Assembly (NCBI GenBank): GCA_026874595.1
Contig: CM049320.1
Coordinates: forward strand, 15,172,488 to 15,236,487
Direction of reading: 5' to 3'
Source of the DNA: Sipunculus nudus
Taxonomy: Eukaryota; Annelida; Sipuncula; Golfingiida; Sipunculidae
DNA: 64,000 nucleotides
Below are positions 5,102 through 55,389 of the stretch, piece by piece. The translations under genes and the position numbers were made by a program. Each line of letters starts with the position of its first letter. The first letter of the stretch is position 1. Under the pieces are notes generated by a model that was not told where the DNA came from, made no database searches, and was given only the letters and a program-made list of their open reading frames with translations.

Positions 5102-5874
5102 TGTTACAGAACCTAATATTAACATATCACGAATGCGTGATGAACACAAATTTTGTAATGGAGATAAAAAAGTCAGATTCTGTAACATTAGGCAGCGTGA
5201 AATGTCTAGGGGAATGAATAAAGAAGTCAGTTTTCTTTGTTAACAACTAACTATAATTTATTCCTAAAACCATCCTAACAATACAATACACTAAATCAAT
5301 ACAATTATACAGTGAAACAGCGGTATAGCAACAAGTCAATACAGTCACACAGAAAGATAATGGTACAATACCTGAATACCAACAGTGTCACCAAAATAAG
5401 TCCTTTGAATGTAAGCTCTCGGAGAATGACAGTCCAGTGGAAAGTTCTTGCAATAACACAGAAAGTACACTGAAGTCCTATGTATAAAATCCAGGAAAGT
5501 TCTTGAAATATCTATAATTGCCGCATTCGTCGGATAAGGTCTTAGAATCTGTAACGCTTCTGCCTCCGCTGGTATCTGCTCTGCTGTCTGCCCCCTGGTT
5601 CTAAAAAAACAGCCCTTTATATACCTTCACACCCTAAGCCGGGAACCTTTTACTTCTGGAACAGTCTACAAAGAACCCTACTCCACAGTAAACACGCGTT
5701 TCAGGATATCTCTAGAAAGACATAGCCGCGTGTCTCTACAGATACCAGGCTAATCACGTGACCCACGACCGAGCGTGAAAACCCAAGGCCCACATGACTA
5801 CGAGAGTTCAACCAGTACGGAATGTAACAACAATACGAGTTACGCCAGTGTCACATAATAGAGCACCTGTAACA
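5102..5874 (-). repeat. Full-length 3' LTR (773 bp) of the gypsy element
   Basis: On the minus strand it begins TGTTACAGGTGCTC and ends GGTTCTGTAACA, so the termini are inverted TGTTACAG/CTGTAACA. A TATATAAAGG promoter box lies at about 5612-5621 and an AATAAA-type signal near 5250. A solo copy of the same LTR lies at 36000-36786, and its first 60 bp recur at 8594-8653. Confidence 0.9.
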
Positions 5875-5886
5875 CTCCCCCTCCTG
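5875..5886 (-). other. Polypurine tract of the gypsy element
   Basis: CAGGAGGGGGAG abuts the 3' LTR on the minus strand, the position expected for the plus-strand DNA primer in reverse transcription. Confidence 0.8.
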
Positions 5887-6005
5887 TAAGAAAAAGAAAG
5901 TTTTCACGGAAAACTTTCTTTTTGCGGTCACAATCACTTACATTTTTACAACATCTCAAAATCATCTTATCTTTAACATTACATAAACATCTTGTTTACA
6001 AAATT

Positions 6006-6598
6006 TCATACACATCTCGATAAGCAATCAGCAAGTACATTTTCTTTCCCCCTAATGCGCATGATATTAAGATTGTAATCCTGCAAGAACAAACTCCATT
6101 TCAACAATCTTTGATTTCTACACCTCAACTTGTTCATGAACGTGAGGGGATTATGATCACTGAAGACAATGATAGGCCTGACTGATGAAGTAACATAAAC
6201 ATCAAAATGTTGCAACGCCAAAATTAAAGCCAAACATTCTTTTTCATAGTGGAGTAGTTTTTCTGGTTTGCATTAAACTTTCTTGAGAAATAACAAATTG
6301 GATGATCTATGCCATCATTGCCTTCTTGTAACAACACAGCACCAGCAGCAGTATCACTAGCATCTATGGCTAACTTAAAAGGTACAGAAAAGTCTGGAGC
6401 TGCTAAAACTGGTGACCTTTGCACAATGGCTTTCAAATTTTGAAATGCATTTTCACACTGAACATTCCATACAAAATTTTGTTTCTTCTTTAACAAATTA
6501 GTCAAAGGTTCAGCTACAGCAGCAAAATTTGGACAAAACTTCCTGTAGTATTCAACCATACCAAGAAAACGCATTATTTGCTTTTGTTTTCTGGTCTA
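6006..6598 (-). pseudogene. RNase H region of the gypsy pol (broken)
   Basis: The upstream frame (6574-6224) has the connector RFLGMVEYYRKFCPNF and the RNase H start with LAIDASDTAAGAVL, whose Asp is the first catalytic acid. The next frame (6233-6006) has VFSDHNPL with a further catalytic Asp, and ends in the typical ENVLADCLSR. The two frames are joined by a frameshift near 6224-6233, and a TAG at 6596-6598 separates them from the reverse transcriptase. The protein stops about 130 bp before the polypurine tract with no integrase after it, which supports the integrase-first order. Confidence 0.85.
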
Positions 6599-7206
6599 GG
6601 AAATGTCAGGTTTTACCTTACCCTGCCCTACAATATGACCCAAAAATGTCACCTGTGCATGAGAAAACTCAGATTTCACTAAGTTGACGGTCAGACGTGC
6701 TTCACCGAGTCTTTCGAAAAGATCGCGAAGAATTTGCAGATGTTTCTCCAAGGTGTCGCTGTACACGATAAGGTCACCAATATATGCGTCGCAGCCCTGA
6801 ATGTCCTTGAAAACCATATGGATGTGGCGCTGTAACGTGGCTGGCGAGTTCTTCATGCCAAACAGCATAACTTTATACTGGTACAGTCTTTGCGGCGTCA
6901 CAAATGCGGACACTACTTTCGCTCGTTCTGTCAGCGGAACTTGCCAGAATCCTTTAAGCAAGTCAAACTTTGAAACATACCTGGAGTTACCGACTCTATC
7001 AATACAATCATCGATCCTCGGAATTGGGAACGTGTCAGTCTTGGTGACAGAGTTCAGTTTTCGATAATCTGTGCACATACGGTAACTCTCATCAGGTTTT
7101 GGCACAAGATTACATGGTGAACTCTAGTTACTGTTACTAGGTTCAATAAAATCATTGTCCAGCAAATATTGAATCTCATCTTGTAAATACTTTTGCTTTT
7201 CTGGAT
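6596..7206 (-). pseudogene. Reverse transcriptase region of the gypsy pol (active-site Asp lost)
   Basis: The readable block 7105-6596 (169 residues) shows CTDYRKLN, the FDLLKGFWQVPL motif holding the first catalytic Asp, FGMKNSPATLQR, and the fourth motif as YIGDLIVYSD. In active relatives the fourth motif is Y-x-D-D, so the first Asp of the pair is Gly here. A further in-frame stop lies just upstream near 7124. With the other stops and frameshifts this makes the copy inactive. Directly upstream lies integrase-tail sequence rather than protease. Confidence 0.9.
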
Positions 7207-8593
7207 TCAGTCTATATGGATGTTGCTTGACTGCGCTTGCCTAACCAACATCGACGTCATGGCACAACATGTTAGTTGCGTTAAAATGTCACTAAACAAA
7301 TGTTCATAATTCAACAGCAGGTTCTTTAGGTCTTGTTTTTCTTGTGCCGTTAAATGTGACTGTTTGTCATCCAGGTTTTTAGGCACGTCTGAGTTTTTTA
7401 TTGGAACTGTACCACACTGAATATCTACATCACACTTAGTATCTGACGCCATACAATCAGTATCTACTTTAACTGGGTCCGTTTTTACACATTTAACAGC
7501 AGTAACATTTTGTACAACATCTGATGTGCTATTTCTGTAATAATATGGTTTCAACATGTTAACATGGCACAGTTGTTTCTTCTTACGTCTATCTGGTGTC
7601 AACAGTATGTAATTTAAATCACTGACTTTCTTGTCAACAATGTAAGGACCAAATTACCTAGCTTGCAGAGGTCTGCCAAGGATGGGAAGTAAGGCAAGGA
7701 CCTTTTCACCAGGCGCAAACGTCCTACTTACAGTGTGCTTGTCCTACTTTGTTTTCATTTTACTTTGTGCAGATTATAGATTTGACTATGCAATCTCACA
7801 AGCATTGTGTAGTGTAGTGCAAAGTCTGAGACACTGCAGTAAACTAAGAGAATCAGGATTTTCACACATGAGTTTTTCTTTAAGCAGTTTCAATGGTCCG
7901 CGAACGGAGTGTCCAAAAACTAGTTCAAAGGGACTGGAACCCAAGCTAAGACTCTTGAAAGGATTCTCTGACAGCAAACAGCAATAGGTGGATTCCTTCG
8001 TCCCAGTCTTTCAGTGTGTCATAGCAATAAGTTCTGATCATGTTTTTTGTGAAAACGCTCTGGTGAAAACGCTCGAGGGCGCCCTGACTTTCAGGATGAT
8101 ATGGCGAAGAGCTGTACTGTTTTATACCTAGCTCAAGCATAACTTGTTGGAATAAGCCAGGCATTAAATTAGACCCTTGGTCAGACTGGACGGATTTTGG
8201 TTATCCAAAAGTTGTATAAAACTTGGTCAGAGCTTTGACAACACTTTTGGCACCAATTTTGCGCAATGGTATTGCCTCAGGGAACCTGGTAGATGCGCAC
8301 ATAATTGTCAGCAAGTACTCATGTCCAGATTTTGTTTTGGGCTTTGGTCCAACCAAATCAACAATAATCCTACTGAATGGTTCCTCGAAGGCAGAAATAG
8401 GCCTAAGTGGGGCCTTAGGAGGATTCTGATTGGGCTTGCCTACCATCTGGCATGTATGGCATGATTTACAATATTGTACAACATTTTTCCTGAGGTTAGG
8501 CCAATCGAGGTGTGTTTTTACTTTCTGATAAGTGTTATTTATACCTGAATGGCCAGACAATGGCCTCATGTGCCATGCTAAGATCTTCACTGG
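7207..8593 (-). pseudogene. Integrase of the gypsy pol (broken into several frames)
   Basis: The frame 8611-8201 shows the His-His-Cys-Cys zinc-binding part (GHSGINNTYQK ... CKSCHTCQ) and the first catalytic Asp in IIVDLVGP. A TAA at 8198-8200 interrupts it. The frame below continues with the second Asp (SDQGSN) and the Glu block HPESQGALERFHQS. A frameshift near 7950-7977 leads into FELVFGHSVRGP, and the C-terminal part ends with TPDRRKKKQLCHVNMLKPY (about 7600-7540), the usual integrase tail. The text then runs on toward the start of reverse transcriptase. The first 18 bp of the 8611 frame lie in the LTR remnant. Confidence 0.88.
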
Positions 8594-8653
8594 GGAATGT
8601 AACAACAACACGAGTTACGCCCGTACGTGTCACATAATAGAGCACCTGTTACA
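8594..8653 (-). repeat. Truncated 5' LTR remnant (60 bp)
   Basis: This matches the first 60 bp of the LTR at 5815-5874, including the stretch around GTGACAC..GCGTAACTCGT and the TGTTACAG-type terminus, with a 4-bp difference in the middle. It then passes directly into integrase sequence, so the rest of the LTR and the 5' coding part were deleted. Confidence 0.85.
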
Positions 8654-11958: not shown

Positions 11959-13547
11959 TCAGTTATAATAATGCATTTCACATCCTGCCTTTGACTATGC
12001 ATGCTTTACAGTATATGCCTCCTCCAAAATGAGATTTATTTTTATTGCGGGTTATGTGTTGTTAATTTGCTTTAGCTAAATTTTTTCGTTTGTGTTCCAT
12101 TTTATACAACATGTCCATACACAATGCATGAGTGCTATGCCTCTGGAAAGATTGACATTTAATTTTGGCACTGCCAGTTAGTTTTGGGGTTATATTAATA
12201 AATGACATAAGTGACAGGCCTTCTTTTCCATCCTTGTTTTATCGAATGCATGGCTGTGTGATTGTATAATTGACCTTTCAGGGTCGAAGGACCATTCAAG
12301 TATTCATACAGCACCACTCATGTATTTGAGTTTCTCATGTATACCTGCTAGTGACCTAGTATATACAGAAGGTGGAGAGTTATCGGAACCTGATTAGTGT
12401 TCAATTTATCACACTTGATCAGTTTTTCACTGCGCATGAGCGCACATCGTCGTCAGGGTTCTACATGTGGGAATCAGTCTTTTCCATGGCGCCATGCAAC
12501 AGACCAGCACGTCGTACAAAAACACATTTTTTCCTACATCTGTCATCCTCGACCCTTCGTCTAATTGTGGTTGTATGCGGTTGTAACTTGGCTTCCTCTT
12601 GTTGTTGAATTGCTTCAGCTTTTTTGTGCTCCATTTTGCCCCTTATTTTCATATACAATACTTAGGCCTATGCTTTGGAATGATTGCAATTCAATTTTGG
12701 CACTGCCATATGGTTATTGGGTCATTTTAATAAATGACATAAGTTGCAGACCTTTTTTTCTATGTTTGTTTGATCTAATGCATGGGTGTGTGCTTTTATA
12801 AATATATATATAAATATAAATATGCACATGTATATATACTTATATATTCACATATATTAAACTTACAAAACAAAAAATGTGACTTACCCCTGAGCAACAG
12901 AAGCCATGGGTAAAGGTTAATTATAGGAACATGGTAAAGGGTATGGAAGGAGTAACCCTCCTCCGATATTCGGTAATTTTTTTTTGGATATGCGATTTAA
13001 AGTGGAAAATTTGAGACAGTTTAAAAAAATGAGGATTTTCTGTTTCTAGGAAACTGTTCTCTTAAATGTCTTTGCCTAATGCGGTCAAATAATAGATAGG
13101 TTTAATATTTAATATTTATATTTCTTCAAATTAAGGATATTATATTTTAATCGTTTTCAGCCTGTTTAGGTCAATGGCGAAAAGGCGCATGCTCGCTTAT
13201 AACTTGAATTATATAAGTTAAATTCAAATTGCTAATAAATAAAAAGAAGAAATCCCCCCCCAAAAAAATGAATAGAGAAATTGGGAAAATAAATAGATAT
13301 AACGAGTGATATTTCAGGTGGACGGTTGGGGATGGGGCCCGGGCGCCCCCATTGAATCCGCCACGGCTTAAAGCCCGTGAATGGAATGTTAAGTGGAGAA
13401 ATTTCTAAAGGTAAATAAGATAAATCCGACCACCTCAAGAGCTCAAATGCAAATGCAGCACCATAAAGAGAGTTAGGCGGCCGTGTTATATCACCGTTTT
13501 TAAAGGAATTGGCTTCCTTAGTTTGTACAGGGCCATTAAACAGAAAA

Positions 13548-21923: not shown

Positions 21924-22060
21924 TGTTACGAAGACAAATTTTTCAAGGGAAAATCCTGGGTCGATCGCGGTTTCGAACCCAGGTCGGTGGCGTCCCAACC
22001 GCTTTGCTAGAAAAGCATGCTTCACTAGCGAGACAGTTCGGTCCGCTTTTATGTCAAACG

Positions 22061-35380: not shown

Positions 35381-35602
35381 TATCATATCATTTCATGTCA
35401 TAGGCCTCATTTTATGCTGACCGGTGAATGTTTATTATCATTGTGGGAAGTTACAAAATTCACCTTTAAAATTAATACATGATTAGTGGTCATGCAACAG
35501 AACACAAAACTATGCTTCTAAATTTCAAGGAGTTCTCAATTGTAACCAATGTTTCTTTTTTTTATTATTATGTTTCCGAGTCTTCTGAAATACCTGTGTA
35601 CA

Positions 35603-35930
35603 CTCTATATCCCCTTGTGTTAAAAATAACACAAACTTGTGTTCCTCAAACACAAGTGCTTGTGTCTTATATGAACAACGTCAATTGTTGTTAAAACATC
35701 ACAAGAAATTGTGTCAAACCCAGTTCGACACAAGATTGGGTTAAATAAAATACAAGTCTCTTGTTTTAAATGTAACATATTATTGTGTTAAATTAACCTG
35801 TGTTATAAGTAACACAATCTTGTGTTAAATTAACACAATATACTTTTGTTAAACGTAACACATCCTTGTGTTATATTTAACACAAGTAACTTGTGTTGTT
35901 TTGACAAAAGGTTTACTTTAATGTAGGACA
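35603..35930 (+). repeat. Cluster of TTGTGTTA / TAACACAA palindromes, left member
   Basis: About a dozen TTGTGTT or AACACAA motifs in both orientations lie in some 330 bp, often as facing pairs. The cluster opens with TACACTCTATATCCCC and then TTGTGTTA. This is repeated in reverse complement, with two mismatches, at the right end of the cluster at 38628-38780 (TACACTGTAAATCCCC). They look like inverted ends of one element or two copies of a palindromic MITE. The flanking TA fits a TA target duplication. Confidence 0.7.
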
Positions 35931-35999: not shown

Positions 36000-36786
36000 T
36001 GTTATAGGTGCTCCTCTTATTGTGTGACACGGGCGTAACTCGTGTTGTTGTTGCACTTTATGTTTAATCCGTACTGGTTGAACTCTCGTTGTCATGCTGG
36101 CTGAGGGTTTTCACGCCTGGCCGAGGTCACGTGATGACCCTGGTATGTAGAGATACACACGGCTATGTTCTTCTCGATAATTTCTGAAACGCGTGTTTAC
36201 TGTGTTGTGTAGGATCCTGAAGACTGTTCGAGGAGTGGAAAATTCTCGGCTTGAGGTGGGAAGGTAAATAAAGGGGCTGTGTTTTAGAAGGGCAGAGAGC
36301 AGAGCAGATTCCAGCGGTCGCAGAAGCGTGTGTCAGTTTCTAGGACCTTATCCGACGAATGCGGCAATTATTGATTTTTTAAGACTTTCTCCTGGATTTA
36401 ATGCATTTGGACTTCAGTTAACTTTCTGGATTGTTACAAGAGCTTTACACTGGACTGTAATTCTCCGAGAGTATACATTTAAAGAACTTATCGTTGTCAC
36501 GGTGTTGGTAACCAGCTACCGTGCACATTATGTTCTGTGTGATTGTATTGATTTGTTGTGATACCGCTGTTTTACTGTATAATTGTGTTGATTTCGTGTA
36601 TTGTAATGTCAGGGTTGTTTTAGGAATAAATTATAGTTAATTGTTAACAAAAAACACTGACTTCTTTATTCATTCCCCCAGACATTTCACGCTGCCTAGT
36701 GTCACAGAATCTGATTTTTTTTATCTCCGTTACAGAATTTGTGTTCATCACGCATACGTGATCTGTTTATATTAGGTTCCGTAACA
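36000..36786 (+). repeat. Solo LTR of the gypsy family (787 bp) with 4-bp target duplication
   Basis: It starts TGTTATAGGTGCTC and ends GGTTCCGTAACA. It aligns along its length with the reverse complement of the LTR at 5102-5874 (GTAACTCG, TCCGTACTGGTTGAACTCTCG, GTGATCTG and others). CATG flanks it on both sides (35996-35999, 36787-36790). It lies between the two palindrome clusters, so it is nested in whatever they bound. It was left by recombination between two LTRs of a full element. Confidence 0.9.
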
Positions 36787-42469: not shown

Positions 42470-42473
42470 GAAT

Positions 42474-42630
42474 TGTTACGGAGTGACATAAAAGCGGACC
42501 GAACTGTCTCGCTAGTGAAGCTTGCTTTTCTAGCAAAGCGGTTGGGACGCCGGGCTAGGGCGCCACCGACCTGGGTTCGAAACCGGGATCGGCCAAGGAT
42601 TTTTCCCCTCAACAATTTGCCTTCGTAACA
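42474..42630 (+). repeat. 5' LTR of the TRIM-like element
   Basis: Contains an A box TAGCAAAGCGG at 42531-42541 and a B box GGTTCGAAACC at 42574-42584, 43 bases start to start as in a tRNA gene, with T-runs near 42600 that could stop RNA polymerase III. Terminal TGTTACG/CGTAACA are inverted repeats. Confidence 0.85.
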
Positions 42631-42633
42631 AAA

Positions 42634-42645
42634 TGGGGGCTCGTC
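42634..42645 (+). other. Primer-binding-site-like segment
   Basis: TGGGGGCTCGTC starts 4 bases after the 5' LTR. This is the start of the tRNA-Pro-type primer site used by several retroelements; after 12 bases the match ends. Confidence 0.65.
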
Positions 42646-42669
42646 TAACGTAAAGGGTTAAATTTGTGG

Positions 42670-42705
42670 CCCAGGGAGTAAGCTCACCAAATTGTGACTC
42701 CTGGG
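42670..42705 (+). other. Stem-loop in the internal region of the TRIM-like element
   Basis: CCCAGGGAGT (42670-42679) pairs with ACTCCTGGG (42697-42705) with one bulged G and a 17-nt loop. Its place between primer site and purine tract would suit an RNA packaging or dimer signal, which is inference. Confidence 0.5.
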
Positions 42706-42739
42706 AAAATTAGTCTTGTTCTGATAGCAGAACGCTCCT

Positions 42740-42748
42740 AAGAGGGGG
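42740..42748 (+). other. Polypurine tract of the TRIM-like element
   Basis: AAGAGGGGG lies two bases before the TGTTACGG start of the 3' LTR. Confidence 0.7.
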
Positions 42749-42750
42749 TG

Positions 42751-42906
42751 TGTTACGGGGTGACATAAAAGCGGACCGAACTGTCTCGCAAGTGAAGCTT
42801 GCTTCGCTAGCGAAGCGGTTGATATGCCGGACTTGTGCGCCACCGACCTGGGTTCGACTCCCGAATCGGCCCAGGATTTTCCCCTCATTTTTTTGTCTTC
42901 GTAACA
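42751..42906 (+). repeat. 3' LTR of the TRIM-like element
   Basis: A box TAGCGAAGCGG at 42808-42818 and B box GGTTCGACTCC at 42851-42861, again 43 bases apart. Both fit the eukaryotic consensus better than those in the 5' LTR. A perfect GCTTCGCTAGCGAAGC palindrome overlaps the A box. A T7 run near 42888-42894 could act as a terminator. Confidence 0.85.
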
Positions 42907-42910
42907 GAAT

Positions 42911-45470
42911 ATATTGCGAGAAAGTAATTAAGGACTAACTGGAAAATGTCAAGAGAAGCAAATCCCCCTGCCAAATATACGAAAGTGGGAAATGATTTCT
43001 CTGACCATTATAATAGCATAAATAAATTGACAAAATTACCAAATGAAGGAATAAAAAAAAATGACAATGTTAATCGAGAATGCACAGAAAACCAATCTGG
43101 TGAAGAGTTTTATAGGACAAAAAAATCCCTGGTTGAATAGAGACGGGTACTAATAACCGTCCTGATGTATTGAATTACATATGAAACTTGCACATTCGTT
43201 TAAAATATATATAACTGTTTTAAGTTTTACTACAAGGTTAAAAATATATGATGACTTATAGGATGTACCTGTCATAAATATTAGAAGTAGATCCAAGTAA
43301 TAATTTTTCAAATATCGCATTGTACGGAAATAATATACGGACGGACGGGCGGAGGATGGAGATGATCGCTATATGCCCTGCTCCGCTGAAGGGAGGAATA
43401 ATAACGTATACCCAGGTTATTGAAACTTGTTGAGCAATTTTGAGCTATCTGTCTGCACGAAACATGATTCCATAGATTGAGGTTACTAATATTTTTGCGA
43501 CTGAAAAGGAACTGTTTGAAAACCCTCGATGTTTTCACGATGAATGCAAAATATATCCGTGATCAGCTTTGATTGGAATATGATCATAGTCGTTGTCGGT
43601 GGCTGTTATTTGCTTGTCTCAAAATATGGTTAAAGAAATAAATAGCGTCACATGTTTTATGACATTGTAAGAGATATCTAGATGCTACCAACATGCATAG
43701 CAAATAATCAGGCAACCCATACAATTACTTACGAAAACTGACATTTTTACTGAATTTTATGTTTGGTTAAAGTATTTCAAAGTTTATAACTTCGCATGAT
43801 GATAGGGATATGAGTGAATATAGAAGATTATTTTGCATGGATGATCCAATGAAAATATATCCTTGAAGAGTTACAAATGTTTTCAGTTTGTTGATACCTG
43901 GTAATAACCTTGTATTAAAGGGAAGAAAAAACACCACTGTCGCCAGCAAAATAGATAAACAAATTTCTAAAGATACGAGTTGGGTTTACAGACATTTCAT
44001 GCGAAATAGTGATTTAGTATAAAATCCTGTAAATTTTGTCTCGGATTAAGTTTATAAAATGCGGAAATGATTTAGATAACCGTAATTGACATAATCTCTT
44101 TGTAATTACGATCTGGATTTTGAAGAGTTTTTTTAAAAAGAAAATTAATGTGTAAATTCACTACAGACCCAACGATGCTAAACATATATATTCGTACTTT
44201 TTAAATATTCTAATACGGCATATGTTTATTTTATGGCTTTAAGTATCATAACAATGTATTTATTAAATAAAAAAGAATATTATATAATTGAAAAATTATT
44301 TATTTTTGTAAAATATATTTCTCTTAACTATTCTATGTATGATATGTCTCTTAGCAAACAGTAGAAATATATCCATTAATTAAAGTACAAGCAGATGCTC
44401 GTCCAGATAACGGTTTTATACATTTCATTTTATTACTGCCTTCGTAACAGTGACATTAATATTGAAGATGTATTTGAATTTGATGTCTCATTTCGGACGA
44501 CAGATAAGACAATAAAGCAATACTTCGATAAGAAATAGGTTAATGGTGGCAGATTCGCCTCAGGGGTGCAGCAAATTGAAGACAACGTATTTTAAATGAA
44601 CTATCAAATTCCTGTCCCAGCTCTGTCAATTAGTGATAAGCCTGGTTGTTATTTCGGGATCGGGAGCCCGGCCTTTTGGCGCTTACATGCCAAATTCTTT
44701 ACAGATCTAACAAATCTAGCAGACGATTCCGAAGGGAATCGGCCGGGAGCAATACCGCACCAAATATGTCCAAGGAATAAAAAAGCAACTTTGACGATTC
44801 TGCAGACATCACGAAACTCAATAGATCACGTGATATAGCATTCTTGGCATACACTCTTCAGCCTTCCACAAATAAACCTTGTTCAAATTGAAAATCGGTT
44901 CATCTCAACGAATTCAAGAAGAAATGTTTTTAGCATGAAGATGAAGAAAAATTCCTGAACAAAATGATATGTAACTAATATTATTACGTTGTTTGTGTTT
45001 ATAATATCGCGCAGTTGTAAGCGTCGGGGAGGCGTCCGACGAACGATTGTCGATTGCAAACCTCTTCTTATAAAAGCAAGAGTGTTACTTCATATTTGTT
45101 TTGTTTAATGATGTATGGTGTTTCCAAATATCGAGGCGTTATGTGCAGGTCCTAAGCGGGGGGGGGGGGGGGGGGAAGGTCAGCCGGTACATCATGCCCA
45201 ATAATATGTTTGAAAATGTAGAAGTCTCATTAAGGTTTCATATTAGCTTTCATAAATGCTGCAGTGGACCCGGGTCGATCAGGAATGTCAGATTAGGCAC
45301 AAAAAAACTCCTCGAAAAAGCGGATTTTATATGATGTATTTATTCATGAGTGACCCGAGGGGCCTGAAAGGCTCCAGACTGCACAGAAATTTCCGATATG
45401 ACCTTATAAAATGTTTGGAAAGCATCATGTATTGTTAAATGTATTCAAAATTGTATCCAACAGGGCACAG
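42911..45470. other. Mostly non-coding stretch; ACGG-type repeat at 43336-43420
   Basis: ACGGACGGACGGGCGG is followed by GATCGCTATATGCCCTGC..CTCCGC, a pattern common in bivalve dispersed repeats. The frame at 44596-44838 (80 codons, +) is GC-richer than its surroundings but unrecognised. A poly(G) run lies at about 45159-45175. Confidence 0.4.
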
Positions 45471-50076: not shown

Positions 50077-50181
50077 TTAACGCTCCTATTTAACAAAGAA
50101 AACATGGAAAGCGATATGGGCCACAACATGATCCTTTAATTTTCAACCCAACATACAATTGGGCCAAATAATAAAGGCCCA
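50077..50181 (-). repeat. B2 terminal repeat (105 bp)
   Basis: Repeats 50519-50623 with one difference (CCACAACATG here, CCACAATATG there). It ends the element at TTAACGCTCC. A unique 146-bp stretch separates it from A2. Confidence 0.9.
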
Positions 50182-50327
50182 TCACATCGTTGCACGAGGT
50201 AACATAAATACAGGAAACAAGCAACACATAGCAAAACAACGCAAATAAGTACACCGAAATACGTTGAAGTAATCCGACCAGAAGAAAAACAGACACATAT
50301 CGAAATAAATGGACAGTGGGTGGGCGG

Positions 50328-50518
50328 GACACCGACAAAACACAACGTGCAACTGACTGGCTGGGGTGTGAACAGTGATTACTGAAGCGTGAGTTCCCCG
50401 GCCCCGTGTATAACTAAGCGGGTTTAAGGGGGACGGCTCCACCTGAATAGATACGGGTTGCCAGGTCTGCAAGATTCAACTTTAAGCGTTAACAATAATT
50501 AACTTCTTTAATTTACAT
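50328..50518 (-). repeat. A2 repeat (191 bp)
   Basis: By eye identical to A1 at 54434-54624. It is joined directly to B1 at 50518/50519, as in circular-intermediate models for this class. Confidence 0.93.
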
Positions 50519-50623
50519 TTAACGCTCCTATTTAACAAAGAAAACATGGAAAGCGATATGGGCCACAATATGATCCTTTAATTTTCAACCCAACATACAA
50601 TTGGGCCAAATAATAAAGGCCCA
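50519..50623 (-). repeat. B1 repeat (105 bp)
   Basis: Direct repeat of B2, located between the recombinase gene and A2. Confidence 0.9.
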
Positions 50624-50675
50624 CAGTTGGCCGCTTGAATGAGCGCCAACTTTATGGCCCAATTTAATTAAAGGG

Positions 50676-51710
50676 CTATTTGAAGAAATTCAAATAGCAA
50701 CCTCTGAACGGTGCCGAGCTTAACCTGCGTTGTAAAGCCATCCGTCTCGCAAAACCAGTTACAACACTGACAGGAGCTTGTATATATCGTTCATATGCAT
50801 TACTCGACCATCTGCCTAGCAGCTTGATCTCCCAATCCTGCATACCTGCCGCTGCTGCATCGGTGGCACCACCTCTACGGAAAGAGTGACCACTATATTG
50901 GTCAATTTGAAATCCGGCTAATGCTAATAGCAGCCGAACATGGTTAACAAAAAGAGACTTTGTAAGAATGCATGTATTCTCGAGTTTAAACAATGGTTCA
51001 TCCTTGTTCGCACCATATAGTGAACCTCGTTGATTCATGTACTGCCGCATAGAACACACGGCACAGATGCTTGTCTGAGAGCAGCCGATGTTGATTACGT
51101 AGCGACATCTAGCTTTGTCAGTTTTTGACCCCTTCAATTTTAGAGTCAGATAACACATGCCCTGCTCATTCTGAAGCAAATGTACATCGCCAACTGTTAA
51201 ATGGTTAGCCCTATCAAACGAGGACTGCGATGGGACACAAAATTCCGCCGCTCTCAGACATGCAAAATAAGCCAGTGTCATGGCTGTCCAAAACAAATAC
51301 GAATCATATGACACCCCTATCTTTTCTCTTAGCTGAAGCAGCATAGAATAAGTTATGGGGAGTTTCTGCTTTGGCGGCCCCGAATCATATTTAAGACCTG
51401 CCAATGCCCGCTTTAGGCGGAATTTGCCTACGAGCGGGTCGCCATATGCTTCTTCGATATGCAAAGATCTCACTGCTGAAAGATAAACTAATATGCTAGA
51501 ATGTTTGAGACTCCTACGGTGCAGGTATGTTACAAACATCAATAATATATCCTCATTAGCTGGTAACGGTTTAAAGTCATATTAATCACAAAACTTAATG
51601 TACTGTCTCTGTGCTGAAGTATATGTTTTTCTGCTGTTTACCCTGAGACCATTCTTGACAAGCTGACAGGCTTCTGCGTACAGAGCACCCGTGACATCTG
51701 AAATACACAT
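50676..51710 (-). pseudogene. Tyrosine recombinase of the Ngaro-type element (one in-frame stop)
   Basis: From the ATG at 51710 the frame reads MCISDVTGALYAEACQ and reaches a TAA at 51584-51582, then continues open to 50676. The open part (51542-50676, 288 residues) holds the catalytic set of tyrosine recombinases: Arg97 in CLRAAEF, Lys near GSKTDK, His219 and Arg222 in GHSFRRGG, Trp245 in LGRWSS, and the likely nucleophile Tyr253 in ERYIQ. The enzyme would insert the circular DNA copy. The single stop is the only visible defect. An acceptor-like GTGTATTTCAG precedes the codons, so expression by splicing is possible but unproven. There are 19 nt between the RT stop and this ATG. Confidence 0.88.
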
Positions 51711-51729
51711 TATACATTAAATTAAAACT

Positions 51730-53481
51730 TCAAATCAGCTGATGTACTGGTAAAGGTAATGGCTTAGTCATTTGTGTGTCAGCTGATGGATGAACCAGCC
51801 GAAAACGCCTCAGGTCACCTCTGGACAACGCATCCGCGACTTCATTCTTGGCACCTGGCACATGTATCGCCGAACACTCAAAACCGTATGTTGCACATGT
51901 AAAGAATAATGCACGCATTAGTTTCATTATTGCACAGTCTCGTGAGGATCCTTTCTGCAGTACGTGCACCACTGCTTGGTTGTCACAGTGAAACAGGACA
52001 CGTTTTGTTGTCAACAGCTTACCCCATGTTGCCGCAGCTTTTGCAATAGCAAAGAGTTCCCTGTATGCAATTGAATGTTTGGAGTGTTCATCAAGTCTGT
52101 CGAATTCCTCATACAACCATGCATTACAAAACACTGCACCATACCCGTAATCTGAGGCGTCCGTCCACAAGTGCAAGCAATCGTTACCTGTCCACTGTTC
52201 TTCATAGAACAAACTTTTCCTGTTCCATCCTGGTAGGTAGCTTAGCCACCACATGATGTCGCTTTTTGCAGCTTTGTTCAGTTTTACACGGTGATGCAGA
52301 AACCGTAACTTTCTTGACGCTTCTATTAAACGACGAGTGAATATTTTACCCGGTTTCACTACACGTGCTACAAATGTTAACTTGCCGATCAGAGACAAAA
52401 GATTCCTCTTTGTTAAGCTTCTAACATGCAACCATTTACGTAACTCTGTTATCGTGTCTTCTACACGTTCGGAAGACATTGACAACTCCATTCTATTGGA
52501 GTCTATTATTATCCCTAGATATTCGAGCCGTGTAGTTGGTTTTACTACCTTTTCTGGTTGCACAGCAAAACCGAGCTTGTAACAGCATTCTAGCATGGTC
52601 TCTAGATTTATATCACACAGAGGGGTTAACGGAGGGCCGCATGTGAAATAATCATCTAGGTAATGTTCAACCTCAGAGACTCCGTATTTTTTCATAATGA
52701 ATTCCAGCCCATCTGCATAATCATTAAACAGTTTCGGGGAACTTCTAAGACCAAATGGTAACACCAAATCCACATAATATTCACGCACTAAATTACCCGA
52801 AGAATCATGCTTTTCCCACGTAGATCCTAATAGTTCCCAGTCATCCGGGTGCACTACTATATGTTTGAAGGCATCCCTTAAGTCTAACTTCGCCATGAGG
52901 GTGCCTTGACCATAGCGCTTCACAACGGAAGTTATATCGTCGATTGTTATGTACCGAAGCGAATGTTCGTCAGAAGGAATAAAGTCATTTACGGACTGGC
53001 CCGGGGGCCATGATAGATCGTGGATGATCCGATATTTTCCTGTAGAGCGCTTTTTAGGGAATGCGCCCATCGGCGACGCGACAAAGTTTACAAAAGGAGG
53101 ACTATAAAATGGACCAGCTTTGCGACCTAAACGCACATCCTTGTCAATGGCTGTTTGTACGGCGGCGTTATATTTATTAGCTGACGGCCAATTATGGCTG
53201 TGTCTTGGAGTTCGATGACCTTTGTAACCAATACGAACACCGGTATTGATACCCTGGACGAGTTTATTTGCTAAGGATCTATCCGGATGACTGGACAGCC
53301 CTACCTGCCATTCTTTAGCATTCAAGGGTGACACTGTTCTAATTACAGTGTTGGCATTTGTATAACGGCTCATGACCTCTGCACTGTCTACAGACGTGGG
53401 CTCGTTTACATGACTGGACGCGACATCGACCGGACTGGTAGTTATTACATCCCTCACGCTGCTCGTGGTACCAGCGGTCAA
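51730..53481 (-). CDS. Reverse transcriptase-RNase H of the Ngaro-type element
   Basis: 583 codons without interruption. The reverse transcriptase part spans roughly residues 100-340: Asp200 in AKLDLRDAF, LPFGLRSSPKLFN, and the active-site YLDD at 274-277. RNase H spans roughly 435-555 with Asp441 (WTDAS), Glu475 (YRELF), Asp500 (HCDNQ) and Asp550 (NEVADALSRG), so all expected acids are present. The N-terminal 50 residues are Ser/Thr-rich and overlap gag by 143 nt in another frame, so start or frameshift use is uncertain. No methyltransferase or hydrolase domain follows. It would copy the element RNA in the cytoplasm or at the nucleus. Confidence 0.93.
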   Translation of the reverse strand: MTAGTTSSVRDVITTSPVDVASSHVNEPTSVDSAEVMSRYTNANTVIRTVSPLNAKEWQVGLSSHPDRSLANKLVQGINTGVRIGYKGHRTPRHSHNWPSANKYNAAVQTAIDKDVRLGRKAGPFYSPPFVNFVASPMGAFPKKRSTGKYRIIHDLSWPPGQSVNDFIPSDEHSLRYITIDDITSVVKRYGQGTLMAKLDLRDAFKHIVVHPDDWELLGSTWEKHDSSGNLVREYYVDLVLPFGLRSSPKLFNDYADGLEFIMKKYGVSEVEHYLDDYFTCGPPLTPLCDINLETMLECCYKLGFAVQPEKVVKPTTRLEYLGIIIDSNRMELSMSSERVEDTITELRKWLHVRSLTKRNLLSLIGKLTFVARVVKPGKIFTRRLIEASRKLRFLHHRVKLNKAAKSDIMWWLSYLPGWNRKSLFYEEQWTGNDCLHLWTDASDYGYGAVFCNAWLYEEFDRLDEHSKHSIAYRELFAIAKAAATWGKLLTTKRVLFHCDNQAVVHVLQKGSSRDCAIMKLMRALFFTCATYGFECSAIHVPGAKNEVADALSRGDLRRFRLVHPSADTQMTKPLPLPVHQLI

Positions 53482-54397
53482 ATCTATAAGATTGGTGGAA
53501 CTTTGTTTGGATTTGGTTTTCAGTCTCCTCCATCTTGGCTTGTTGCGAGCGAAAGGGGCATTTTTGGACTACGTGATCAAACGATTTACATCTGAAACAC
53601 TGAGACGTATTACGTTTCACCGCTGTTGCATCCAAAATTGTGACGTACATGTTAGAATCAATTTCATCAAAAGCGAATGGATGGAGGCTACCAGCAATCT
53701 GACTGCGGAAACGGACATCGTAAGCCATAACGGCAGACCACAAATATTTTCTGTCACATTCATGAATGAAGGTTCTGTATTTTGCGAAACTATTATATTT
53801 ATCTGGATACTTCTGCAGTACTACCATCTCGTATCGAGACCACGCTTGGAGCCATATGGAAAAATTATCTAATGTTCTACGTGACTTCTTTTGTCGAAAT
53901 TCTAAATTATCACTGACAAACACAGCCTCGGCTTCTCTGTTAACTGGTTCTGAAGCAATATATAGAAAGTCAGGCAAATGAACAAACTCACCATTCTGTG
54001 CAGCCTGGACATTCTTTTCAGGGATGACCGCCCCGAGCACGTGAACGTTTCCGCGCGAAACTGGTGTTACAGCTGGCTTGCGTGGAGGTTGTCCTTCTGA
54101 ATTCGTGTGTTGCACAGAAATTTCGTTTTCTGAGTTTTGTACTCCCAGAACACATTTAGCTAAATTGTCATGTGAAGCTTTCAAGCTTTCTATACCAAAA
54201 TTCAACTGTTGCATCAAAGAAACTAAAGCTTCCAGAATTTGGTTCGTTGACGGCTCTGTTTCTTTTATATCTTGTCCCATATCGTCCGGGTTTTTTTCGA
54301 TTTCGAACTGCCGAGGACATTCCTTGCCTGTAGGGCCGTCGTGACCTTTGCAAGGAAATTTACAGGTTGTGCAAGTCCTTACTTTATCCGAACTCAT
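53339..54397 (-). CDS. Gag-like protein of the Ngaro-type element
   Basis: 352 residues from the ATG at 54397. The N-terminus has a Cys-rich start (CTTCKFPCKGHDGPTGKEC, residues 9-27) typical of this retroelement order. Then come a predicted helical stretch (about 51-85) and a central capsid-like domain (about 160-250, WLQAWSRYE). A CX2CX4HX4C zinc knuckle covers 267-280, and a second Cys/His cluster lies at 317-351, of which the first part is CCCH-like. It probably binds the element RNA and forms particles. It ends inside the RT frame. Confidence 0.88.
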   Translation of the reverse strand: MSSDKVRTCTTCKFPCKGHDGPTGKECPRQFEIEKNPDDMGQDIKETEPSTNQILEALVSLMQQLNFGIESLKASHDNLAKCVLGVQNSENEISVQHTNSEGQPPRKPAVTPVSRGNVHVLGAVIPEKNVQAAQNGEFVHLPDFLYIASEPVNREAEAVFVSDNLEFRQKKSRRTLDNFSIWLQAWSRYEMVVLQKYPDKYNSFAKYRTFIHECDRKYLWSAVMAYDVRFRSQIAGSLHPFAFDEIDSNMYVTILDATAVKRNTSQCFRCKSFDHVVQKCPFRSQQAKMEETENQIQTKFHQSYRFDRWYHEQREGCNNYQSGRCRVQSCKRAHVCRQCRGHEPLYKCQHCN

Positions 54398-54433
54398 GGT
54401 GCGATGACTTAACTAACGATTACATGTACGTGC

Positions 54434-54624
54434 GACACCGACAAAACACAACGTGCAACTGACTGGCTGGGGTGTGAACAGTGATTACTGAAGCGTGAGT
54501 TCCCCGGCCCCGTGTATAACTAAGCGGGTTTAAGGGGGACGGCTCCACCTGAATAGATACGGGTTGCCAGGTCTGCAAGATTCAACTTTAAGCGTTAACA
54601 ATAATTAACTTCTTTAATTTACAT
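54434..54624 (-). repeat. A1 terminal repeat (191 bp)
   Basis: 5' end of the element on the minus strand, starting ATGTAAATTAAAGAAG and lying 37 bp upstream of the gag start. It must contain or adjoin the promoter. No clear TATA box beyond AT-rich text was seen. Confidence 0.9.
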
Positions 54625-55389
54625 ATAAAACATTCATATATAACAATAATGCAATCACTATTTAAACTGAATTATAATATTTGTATTGCTAACAACCAAA
54701 CATGGTCAGAAATACTCAAGACATGCCAAGAGAGTCGAGGAACTTTTTTAATCGTCTTGTTGTTCTCTCTATTGCCGTGGTTGCATATTTTCTCCCTCCC
54801 AGACACCATTTCTGGCCATGTCCCTTAGCCTATATAAAACCTCTAGAGAAAGGATCAAAACCGTATATCAACTCCAACCTAGTCCGTTTTTTTAATATAC
54901 AACGATTAATTATGAAATATACCACAAACATTTGTTGTCTGTCAGATTTTCAAATGCAAGTAGAAGAGGTGTCACGTGATGTGTTACGTATACATCACCA
55001 ATTTGTATATTGGGAACAAATGGCATGTAATCTGCACGGTTCCATAATGCCCTTTAGCTTTCAACACTTTACATCATTGTATTATGGCCAAAATAAGAAT
55101 ACATTGTTAGATGTGAGGAGTGAATAATATCTCAATATACCCTAATAATCTTGCTCTGTTAATGAATATTTTACGACAAACCGCCTATGTCCTATTTACT
55201 GAAATACATTATGTCTTTCCACGTCCATGTTTTAAGATAGCGACAGCTTGTCACCCCAAACGTCGATTTTAGATGAATTGAAGAACGATGGGGTGACAGT
55301 ACAAGCTATTGGGTTCGCATCAATTCTAGTATGTGCAGATGTGCACGCCATTTCTGACACTACTTTTTTAATTTTCATCTACTTCTCGA
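54625..55389. other. Non-coding flank of the Ngaro-type element
   Basis: AT-rich. The plus frame 54702-55127 (141 codons) has no recognised motif, though it is longer than average for this DNA. Its composition is mixed and no splice context was seen. Confidence 0.35.

Follow-up and report, generated by a model that had tools for sequence, protein, structure and literature searches.

The question raised by a short element in a 64,000-nucleotide stretch of Sipunculus nudus DNA (the window, to whose positions all unmarked coordinates refer) is how an RNA made by RNA polymerase III (Pol III) would enter the life cycle of LTR retrotransposons, and by which autonomous element a TRIM of the group known as TRIMp3 is moved. 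The element, at 42474–42906, is a 433-bp miniature LTR retrotransposon composed of two direct repeats and a 120-bp inside (42631–42750, plus strand, without TTTT). Self-alignment delimits a 157-bp 5′ LTR (LTR5, 42474–42630, plus strand) and a 156-bp 3′ LTR (LTR3, 42751–42906, plus strand), which are identical at 135 of 157 alignment columns (9 transitions, 12 transversions and 1 indel; BLAST E = 1.9e-48), and both of which start with TGTTACG and end with CGTAACA, giving inverted termini. Directly outside them stands the 4-bp target site duplication GAAT (42470–42473 and 42907–42910). The inside opens with AAA-TGGGGGCTCGTC, a primer binding site (PBS) of tRNA-Pro type (42634–42645, plus strand) that begins 3 nt past LTR5 behind the AAA spacer, and closes with AAGAGGGGGTG, the polypurine tract AAGAGGGGG plus TG abutting LTR3 (42740–42750, plus strand). 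The 12 nt of TGGGGGCTCGTC are the first letters of the proline-tRNA primer site in a probe as printed in PMC4587795, and with up to two mismatches they recur at only two other sites on both strands of the 64 kb. No ORF of at least 150 aa overlaps the element, and among the listed stop-to-stop frames over it only two, of 80 and 89 aa, reach 75 aa; with two LTRs, a length under about 1 kb and no coding capacity for mobilisation, it is a TRIM. Repeats, duplication, primer-site-like segment, purine tract and inside are all as an earlier note on this sequence had described them.

That note had also reported an A box and a B box 43 bases apart in each LTR, followed by T-runs, and both observations hold, the 43 being counted from start to start (LTR positions 58 and 101) with a gap of 31 nt. 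The A boxes, TAGCAAAGCGGT in LTR5 (42531–42542, plus strand) and TAGCGAAGCGGT in LTR3 (42808–42819, plus strand), each have one mismatch to TRGCNNARYNGG; the B box, compared with GGTTCGANTCC, has one mismatch in LTR5 (GGTTCGAAACC, 42574–42584, plus strand) and none in LTR3 (GGTTCGACTCC, 42851–42861, plus strand). Within the window, motif matching finds such a pair (at most one mismatch per box, gap 20–80) only in these two LTRs; simulated 64-kb sequences (60 runs) held 0.017 such pairs on average. Behind the B box, candidate Pol III terminators lie at LTR position 127 in both LTRs, as T5 in LTR5 (42600–42604, plus strand), a weak one that would need read-through, and as T4 in LTR3 (42877–42880, plus strand), where a T7 follows at position 138 (42888–42894) in that LTR only, the two covering 42877–42894. 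A further T4 occupies LTR positions 53–56 of LTR5, inside the leader that a Pol III transcript would have. We considered the T4-free stretch between the two terminators as a sign of Pol III selection and rejected it, because 55% of shuffled sequences of the same composition show it as well.

ARAGORN called no tRNA in the 64-kb window and Rfam gave no tRNA or 5S match over the TRIM, and we conclude from this that only the promoter part of the LTR is tRNA-like. The tRNA shape for which the earlier note had suggested folding the LTR did not appear: relative to shuffled sequences the complete LTRs are more stably folded (z −2.3 and −3.2), and the tRNA-like part is not outstanding (z −0.6 and −1.3) and forms no cloverleaf. 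Self-priming by the tRNA-like unit was discarded as well, its complementarity to the PBS reaching at best 6 and 7 of 12 letters against a shuffled mean of 7.4.

The earlier note had seen here an animal counterpart of the plant element Cassandra and knew of no described family like it. The first half of this stands, in that the element is a TRIM with a tRNA-like Pol III promoter motif; the second is outdated, because TRIMs with tRNA-derived sequence in their LTRs have been defined and named as Helenus, of the TRIMp3 group (Kojima, 2024; PMC10886601). In the portion of that paper available to us, Helenus is recorded from bivalves, fish, wasps, a brachiopod, nemerteans, a ctenophore, fungi and Selaginella, the lengths are 311–1263 bp, the animal members have 4-bp duplications, a proline primer is given among them for bivalves only and there for some members, capture of a SINE is Kojima's proposal for the origin of the kind, and Pol III transcription is put forward without experimental validation. 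The S. nudus element is like Helenus in being a short LTR element with A and B boxes in both LTRs, a PBS and a purine tract and a length within the stated range, like animal Helenus in its 4-bp duplications, like some bivalve Helenus in its tRNA-Pro primer, and like zebrafish LTR-11_DR in its tandem arrays (PMC10886601, as available). The box pair lies at tRNA-like spacing in both window LTRs and exactly 43 nt apart in 30 of 43 genome LTRs (see below), PBS and purine tract lie between the LTRs, the duplications are of 4 bp, and the LTR unit has no complementarity to the PBS. Compared by description rather than with a named consensus, no structural difference from Helenus as portrayed in the accessible text was found, and the TRIM at 42474–42906 is by the structural features tested, on that same descriptive comparison, a Helenus, a kind known since 2024; set against Helenus in the same way, it is new at the family level unless the Helenus consensus set says otherwise. 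In the literature searched, one meeting report mentions the kind; no further primary paper devoted to TRIMs whose LTRs are tRNA-like and no report of Helenus Pol III transcription was found there.

Two other known systems invite comparison, each as described in the part of its source available to us. Cassandra of plants (PMC7215508) is likewise a TRIM with the promoter of a small-RNA gene in its LTR, and likewise has tandem LTR-inside arrays and LTR read-through, but its boxes are those of 5S rRNA, whereas those of the S. nudus element are of tRNA type, with no Rfam 5S match. The biv-TRIM of bivalves (PMC6934838) resembles it as an animal TRIM with a short inside, arrays and solo LTRs; it differs in having terminal direct repeats (TDRs) of 202–218 bp and an inside of 77–80 bp, against 157 and 120 here, in having no clear PBS, and in a conserved segment, TGATCCCAAAGGAC, that by reading is absent from the inside of the TRIM described here.

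Is the pair of repeats in the window really a pair of LTRs? The earlier note had named two SINE insertions side by side as the alternative, and had asked for further copies with the same boundaries, duplications and matching pairs. A whole-unit search of the 1.43-Gb assembly (153 contigs), in which the best 40 of 2911 first-look candidates were scored, gave 54 rows, from which 30 loci were taken; two of these were removed, L016 because it belongs to the array of L008 and L023 because it is a segmental copy of L017, and 28 remained (probably 27 distinct insertions, the six flanking letters on each side of L024 being the same as those of L017). For a second sample the ranking used the inside alone: the best 40 of 815 first-look candidates were scored, 30 loci were taken and 24 kept. 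Here L034, L045, L050 and L059 were set aside because their 40 bases to the left are those of another locus (for L059, probably wrongly, since its twin L043 is on a different chromosome and L059 itself ends in an (AT)n tract), and at L047 and L051 no TRIM LTR was called immediately upstream.

The copies sampled have the same build as that in the window, the 28 whole-unit loci comprising 22 two-LTR units and 6 arrays with three or four LTRs. At 19 of the 28 the outer 4-bp duplications match exactly, at 24 of 28 at least three of the four letters agree, and the control for duplications at either inner LTR edge gave 0/28 each; in the inside-ranked sample 9 of 24 are exact (window copy included, and 4 loci with one LTR found). 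The PBS was exact in 22 of the 36 insides of the whole-unit sample, with one mismatch in 13 and two in 1, and had at most one mismatch in 24 of 25 inside-ranked insides; the commonest purine-tract end was found in 27/36, and by the looser requirement of five or more G among the final 12 letters, 34/36 and 23/25 insides have a G-rich end. For two adjacent SINEs one could point to the A/B-box promoter in the LTR, as in a SINE head, and to a single LTR copy in the window at 21924–22056. The duplications, however, flank the LTR pair and not single units (19/28 against 0 and 0 of 28), the criterion of a tRNA-derived SINE being a single unit with duplications of its own; the same inside recurs between the LTRs, its PBS with at most two mismatches in all 36 insides of the first sample; and the solo copy has no tail and ends at the LTR end. 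The outer duplications, together with the closer likeness of LTR partners described next, therefore put both the two-SINE and the chance reading out for the sampled copies. For these, two SINEs are refuted, and we regard that reading of the window pair as having almost no chance of being right; the LTR reading survived the check that the earlier note had set for it, and the sampled genome copies fit products of LTR retrotransposition. As a separate observation, tandem TRIM arrays with three or four LTRs sharing insides occur at L008, L009, L010, L015, L018, L026 and L044.

Matching LTR pairs, too, were recovered. In 17 inside-ranked loci with at least two LTRs and an inner edge that begins with GG (window copy excluded), LTR partners differ by 0.114 and 5′–3′ pairs between loci by 0.135, with 0 of 5000 permutations as low. 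This signal is real but modest, because the 5′ LTRs of different loci, which differ by 0.112 (3′ LTRs by 0.158), are as alike as partners are; it would fit a burst of insertions of similar age. An apparent side difference between 5′ and 3′ LTRs at sites 108–147 in the whole-unit sample (site 141, p = 7e-6) is a ranking artefact, because the query LTRs differ at most such sites and the effect is absent from the inside-ranked sample. The idea that the two LTRs are inherited apart was accordingly dropped: the order effect is gone in the 17 inside-ranked loci, where at site 139 the combination A5′/T3′ occurs 0 times, T5′/A3′ 4 times, and 10 loci are concordant for A or T.

The single copy at 21924–22056 (minus strand) is a solo LTR of the family that has decayed, losing 13 columns between the boxes; it sits in an (AT)n tract and terminates at the LTR end without a tail. 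LTR5 differs from it at 12 of 139 positions and from its own partner LTR3 at 21 of 156; it is closer to the solo LTR (13 vs 3 unique changes, 6 undecided, p = 0.02), and the two LTRs of the window copy are of different sub-types, with gene conversion after insertion as a possible cause. A 13-nt LTR-end match at 44437–44449 was rejected as a further copy, having by eye no surrounding LTR, and the direct repeat pair at 12141/12673 (12057–12269/12600–12801, imperfect, 76% over 213 bp) was rejected as LTRs, as it is without LTR signs. Among the other repeats of the window are short palindromic repeats of the type CTTGTGTTA...TAACACAAG at 35580–35900 and, at 50077–54646 on the minus strand, a tyrosine-recombinase retroelement, which we take to be DIRS/Ngaro-like. 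All on the minus strand, the latter has an ORF without Pfam match (53342–54412), an RT-RNase H ORF found by Pfam (51733–53568) and an ORF with weak Cre-like matches (50679–51581, best E 0.26), as well as split direct repeats (50328–50538/54434–54646 and 50077–50181/50519–50623).

A TRIM without genes needs the proteins of another element, and a candidate mover family is represented in the window itself. A deleted Gypsy-type element occupies 5102–8653 on the minus strand, with a TAGT duplication; along that strand come an LTR start (8653–8594), two integrase pieces recognised by Pfam and sequence comparison (8614–7949 and 7653–7210), RT (7123–6599), RNase H (6595–6009), a purine tract and the LTR (5874–5102). 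The order is integrase, RT, RNase H, and the C-terminus of the integrase shares one open frame with a stretch that by eye resembles the start of RT; at the genomic locus L061 this stretch stands directly before RT, with integrase upstream of RT. The window copy has its primer site deleted and lacks the SCAN part of gag. The family is also represented by a solo LTR of 787 bp at 36000–36786 (plus strand), flanked by a CATG duplication. The 20-nt purine-tract/LTR junction of the TRIM agrees with that of the window Gypsy at 17 of 20 positions, the next best site on both strands of the 64 kb reaching 13/20; with TGTTAC taken as given, the chance of such a match is 0.9–2.8%.

Integrase upstream of RT is described as a mark of Gmr1 (PMC6238403, PMC8220671) and the SCAN domain as homologous to Gmr1-like gag (PMC4592553), in the parts of these papers at hand. 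Having both integrase upstream of RT and, in the copy described below, a SCAN-type gag, the candidate mover is like a Gmr1-like Gypsy by gene order and gag type. It agrees with the TRIM in the kind of its LTR termini and in the junction of purine tract and LTR, has an AAA spacer before a proline-type primer site as the TRIM does, and likewise makes duplications of 4 bp; the Gmr1-like Gypsy genes are absent from the TRIM, which shares with the mover only ends and priming signals. In the accessible text of Kojima (2024; PMC10886601), Gypsy movers of animal Helenus are inferred from primer-site likeness and long LTR likeness between Helenus and its mover is not to be expected; a Gypsy with SCAN gag and integrase first does not figure there as a Helenus mover, nor does Gmr1.

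Further linking the two families, one inside-ranked locus, L047 (G000:C16; positions as in that locus), is a Gypsy/TRIM chimera. A Gypsy LTR (702–1500), aligned over 787 of 787 query positions at 79.5% identity, is joined without an intervening base to a TRIM inside (1501–1619, 92.5%), which is followed by one TRIM LTR (1620–1763, 84% to LTR3) and then by AAA and a longer proline-type primer site. We read the TTGGTGCTCGTCCGGGAT that follows AAA as the Gypsy's own primer site, of proline type. Downstream come a gag frame with a SCAN domain (L047:2527–2859, PF02023, E = 4.8e-13), integrase (79–91% amino-acid identity to the window Gypsy), a 4.2-kb interruption, RT (87%) and RNase H (83–85%). The 3′ end has the purine tract GGAGGGGGAG and then an LTR 87.7% identical to the 5′ LTR over 668 of 799 positions, the LTR end being unaligned. 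Both junctions contain TTCGTAACAAAAT, a stretch common to Gypsy and TRIM, together with a similar primer site. Gypsy-LTR pieces were seen in seven rows (six places) among 60 loci, and only in L047 is one joined to a TRIM inside. This is not a plain nested insertion, for which two TRIM LTRs would be expected.

The order Gypsy LTR, TRIM inside, TRIM LTR, Gypsy inside, Gypsy LTR would instead fit intermolecular plus-strand transfers at a common primer site. That a Pol III-type TRIM (TRIMp3) is mobilised by the Gmr1-like Gypsy, and that the chimera is a fossil of two such transfers between co-packaged cDNAs, seems to us somewhat more probable than the contrary. The chimera may also have arisen on the chromosome and without co-packaging, if a Gypsy copy recombined with a TRIM copy or circle at the short stretch common to their LTR ends and primer sites. 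This is an appreciable though lesser possibility: TTCGTAACAAAAT and a similar primer site are indeed present at both junctions, and the TRIM arrays with three or four LTRs in 6/28 loci make recombination plausible, but the homology available amounts to 13 exact letters plus the similar primer site, with both breakpoints falling inside it, and plus-strand transfer at the primer site would predict exactly both junctions.

In the TRIM copies L051 and L052, pieces of the LTR and of the inside are broken or repeated, and in L052 an antisense Gypsy-LTR piece starts 20 bp past a TRIM LTR. At L005/L035 a Gypsy-LTR piece (positions 1–190, 68.6%) lies one base from the TRIM 5′ end, and represents either a nested insertion or a second contact point.

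Starting from the observed anatomy, family, duplications and shared signals, and from the chimera joined at LTR-end/primer-site junctions, we suggest, with a probability of roughly 0.85 for the explanation as a whole, that the element is a non-autonomous Helenus (TRIMp3) LTR retrotransposon served by the proteins of a Gmr1-like Gypsy, for which we infer Pol III use, co-packaging and strand transfer. TFIIIC would bind the A and B boxes of the 5′ LTR, and Pol III, by published rules on box spacing, start site (18–20 nt upstream of the A box) and terminators (PMC4937561, PMC5356446, as far as available), would start near LTR position 38–40. Four Ts are enough as a terminator in humans and more are needed in yeasts, and read-through is common in human cells, according to the available text of PMC5356446. 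A full-length RNA needs read-through, because the 5′ LTR bears the same kind of T-run; the T4–T5 run there should stop some Pol III, and the remainder would pass it and the inside and stop at the T-run of the 3′ LTR. The resulting RNA would have an R of roughly LTR 39–130 at both ends. Its minus strand would be primed by tRNA-Pro at the primer site and its plus strand by the purine tract, with proteins supplied by the Gmr1-like Gypsy of the same genome; co-packaging of TRIM and Gypsy RNAs, with strand transfer between them, would yield the chimera.

Pol III transcription of the TRIM is deduced from motifs, and the genome copies bear on it in both directions. The B box has at most one mismatch in 58/64 LTRs of the whole-unit sample and 37/43 of the inside-ranked sample; the A box is never exact in the former, with one mismatch in 42/64 and two in 22/64. 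In the inside-ranked sample, T4 is missing downstream of the B box in 8/43 LTRs and stands close behind it in only 23/41. The element might also be an ordinary TRIM, transcribed by RNA polymerase II from CATAAAAG, a TATA-like motif at LTR positions 14–21 (42487–42494 in LTR5 and 42764–42771 in LTR3, plus strand), the tRNA-like boxes being relics without present role. The motif belongs to the longest block that all three LTR copies in the window share unchanged (positions 11–39, run length p = 0.075) and is exact in 49/64 (whole-unit) and 33/43 (inside-ranked) genome LTRs; the box columns are no more conserved than the rest of the LTR in the whole-unit sample (0.060 vs 0.072 differing, p = 0.63); and T4 occurs at the leader site of the inferred Pol III transcript in 28/64 and 17/43 LTRs of the two samples. 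Against this, neither window LTR has an exact AATAAA, and the one-mismatch hexamer lies upstream of any start that the motif could direct, so that no terminal repeat R would result. The A–B spacing, moreover, is kept at exactly 43 in 30 of the 34 inside-ranked LTRs in which both boxes were found (43 examined), and a TATA-like motif some 20 bp ahead of the expected start would also suit Pol III. We therefore consider transcription by RNA polymerase II with relic boxes unlikely, and retain the Helenus life cycle set out above.

What is new here is a direct physical link between a TRIMp3 element and its probable mover, where the accessible text of Kojima (2024; PMC10886601) offers primer-site likeness for animal Helenus. 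The candidate mover is described to the level of gene order and gag type, and the chimera is a physical record of contact between Gypsy and TRIM, bearing on how a Pol III-made RNA would enter the cycle of LTR retrotransposons and on the identity of the autonomous element by which the TRIM is moved. With its many copies, the family also suits the study of the terminator question, namely how Pol III would pass the T-run of the first LTR and yet stop in the second, when the two are identical at birth.
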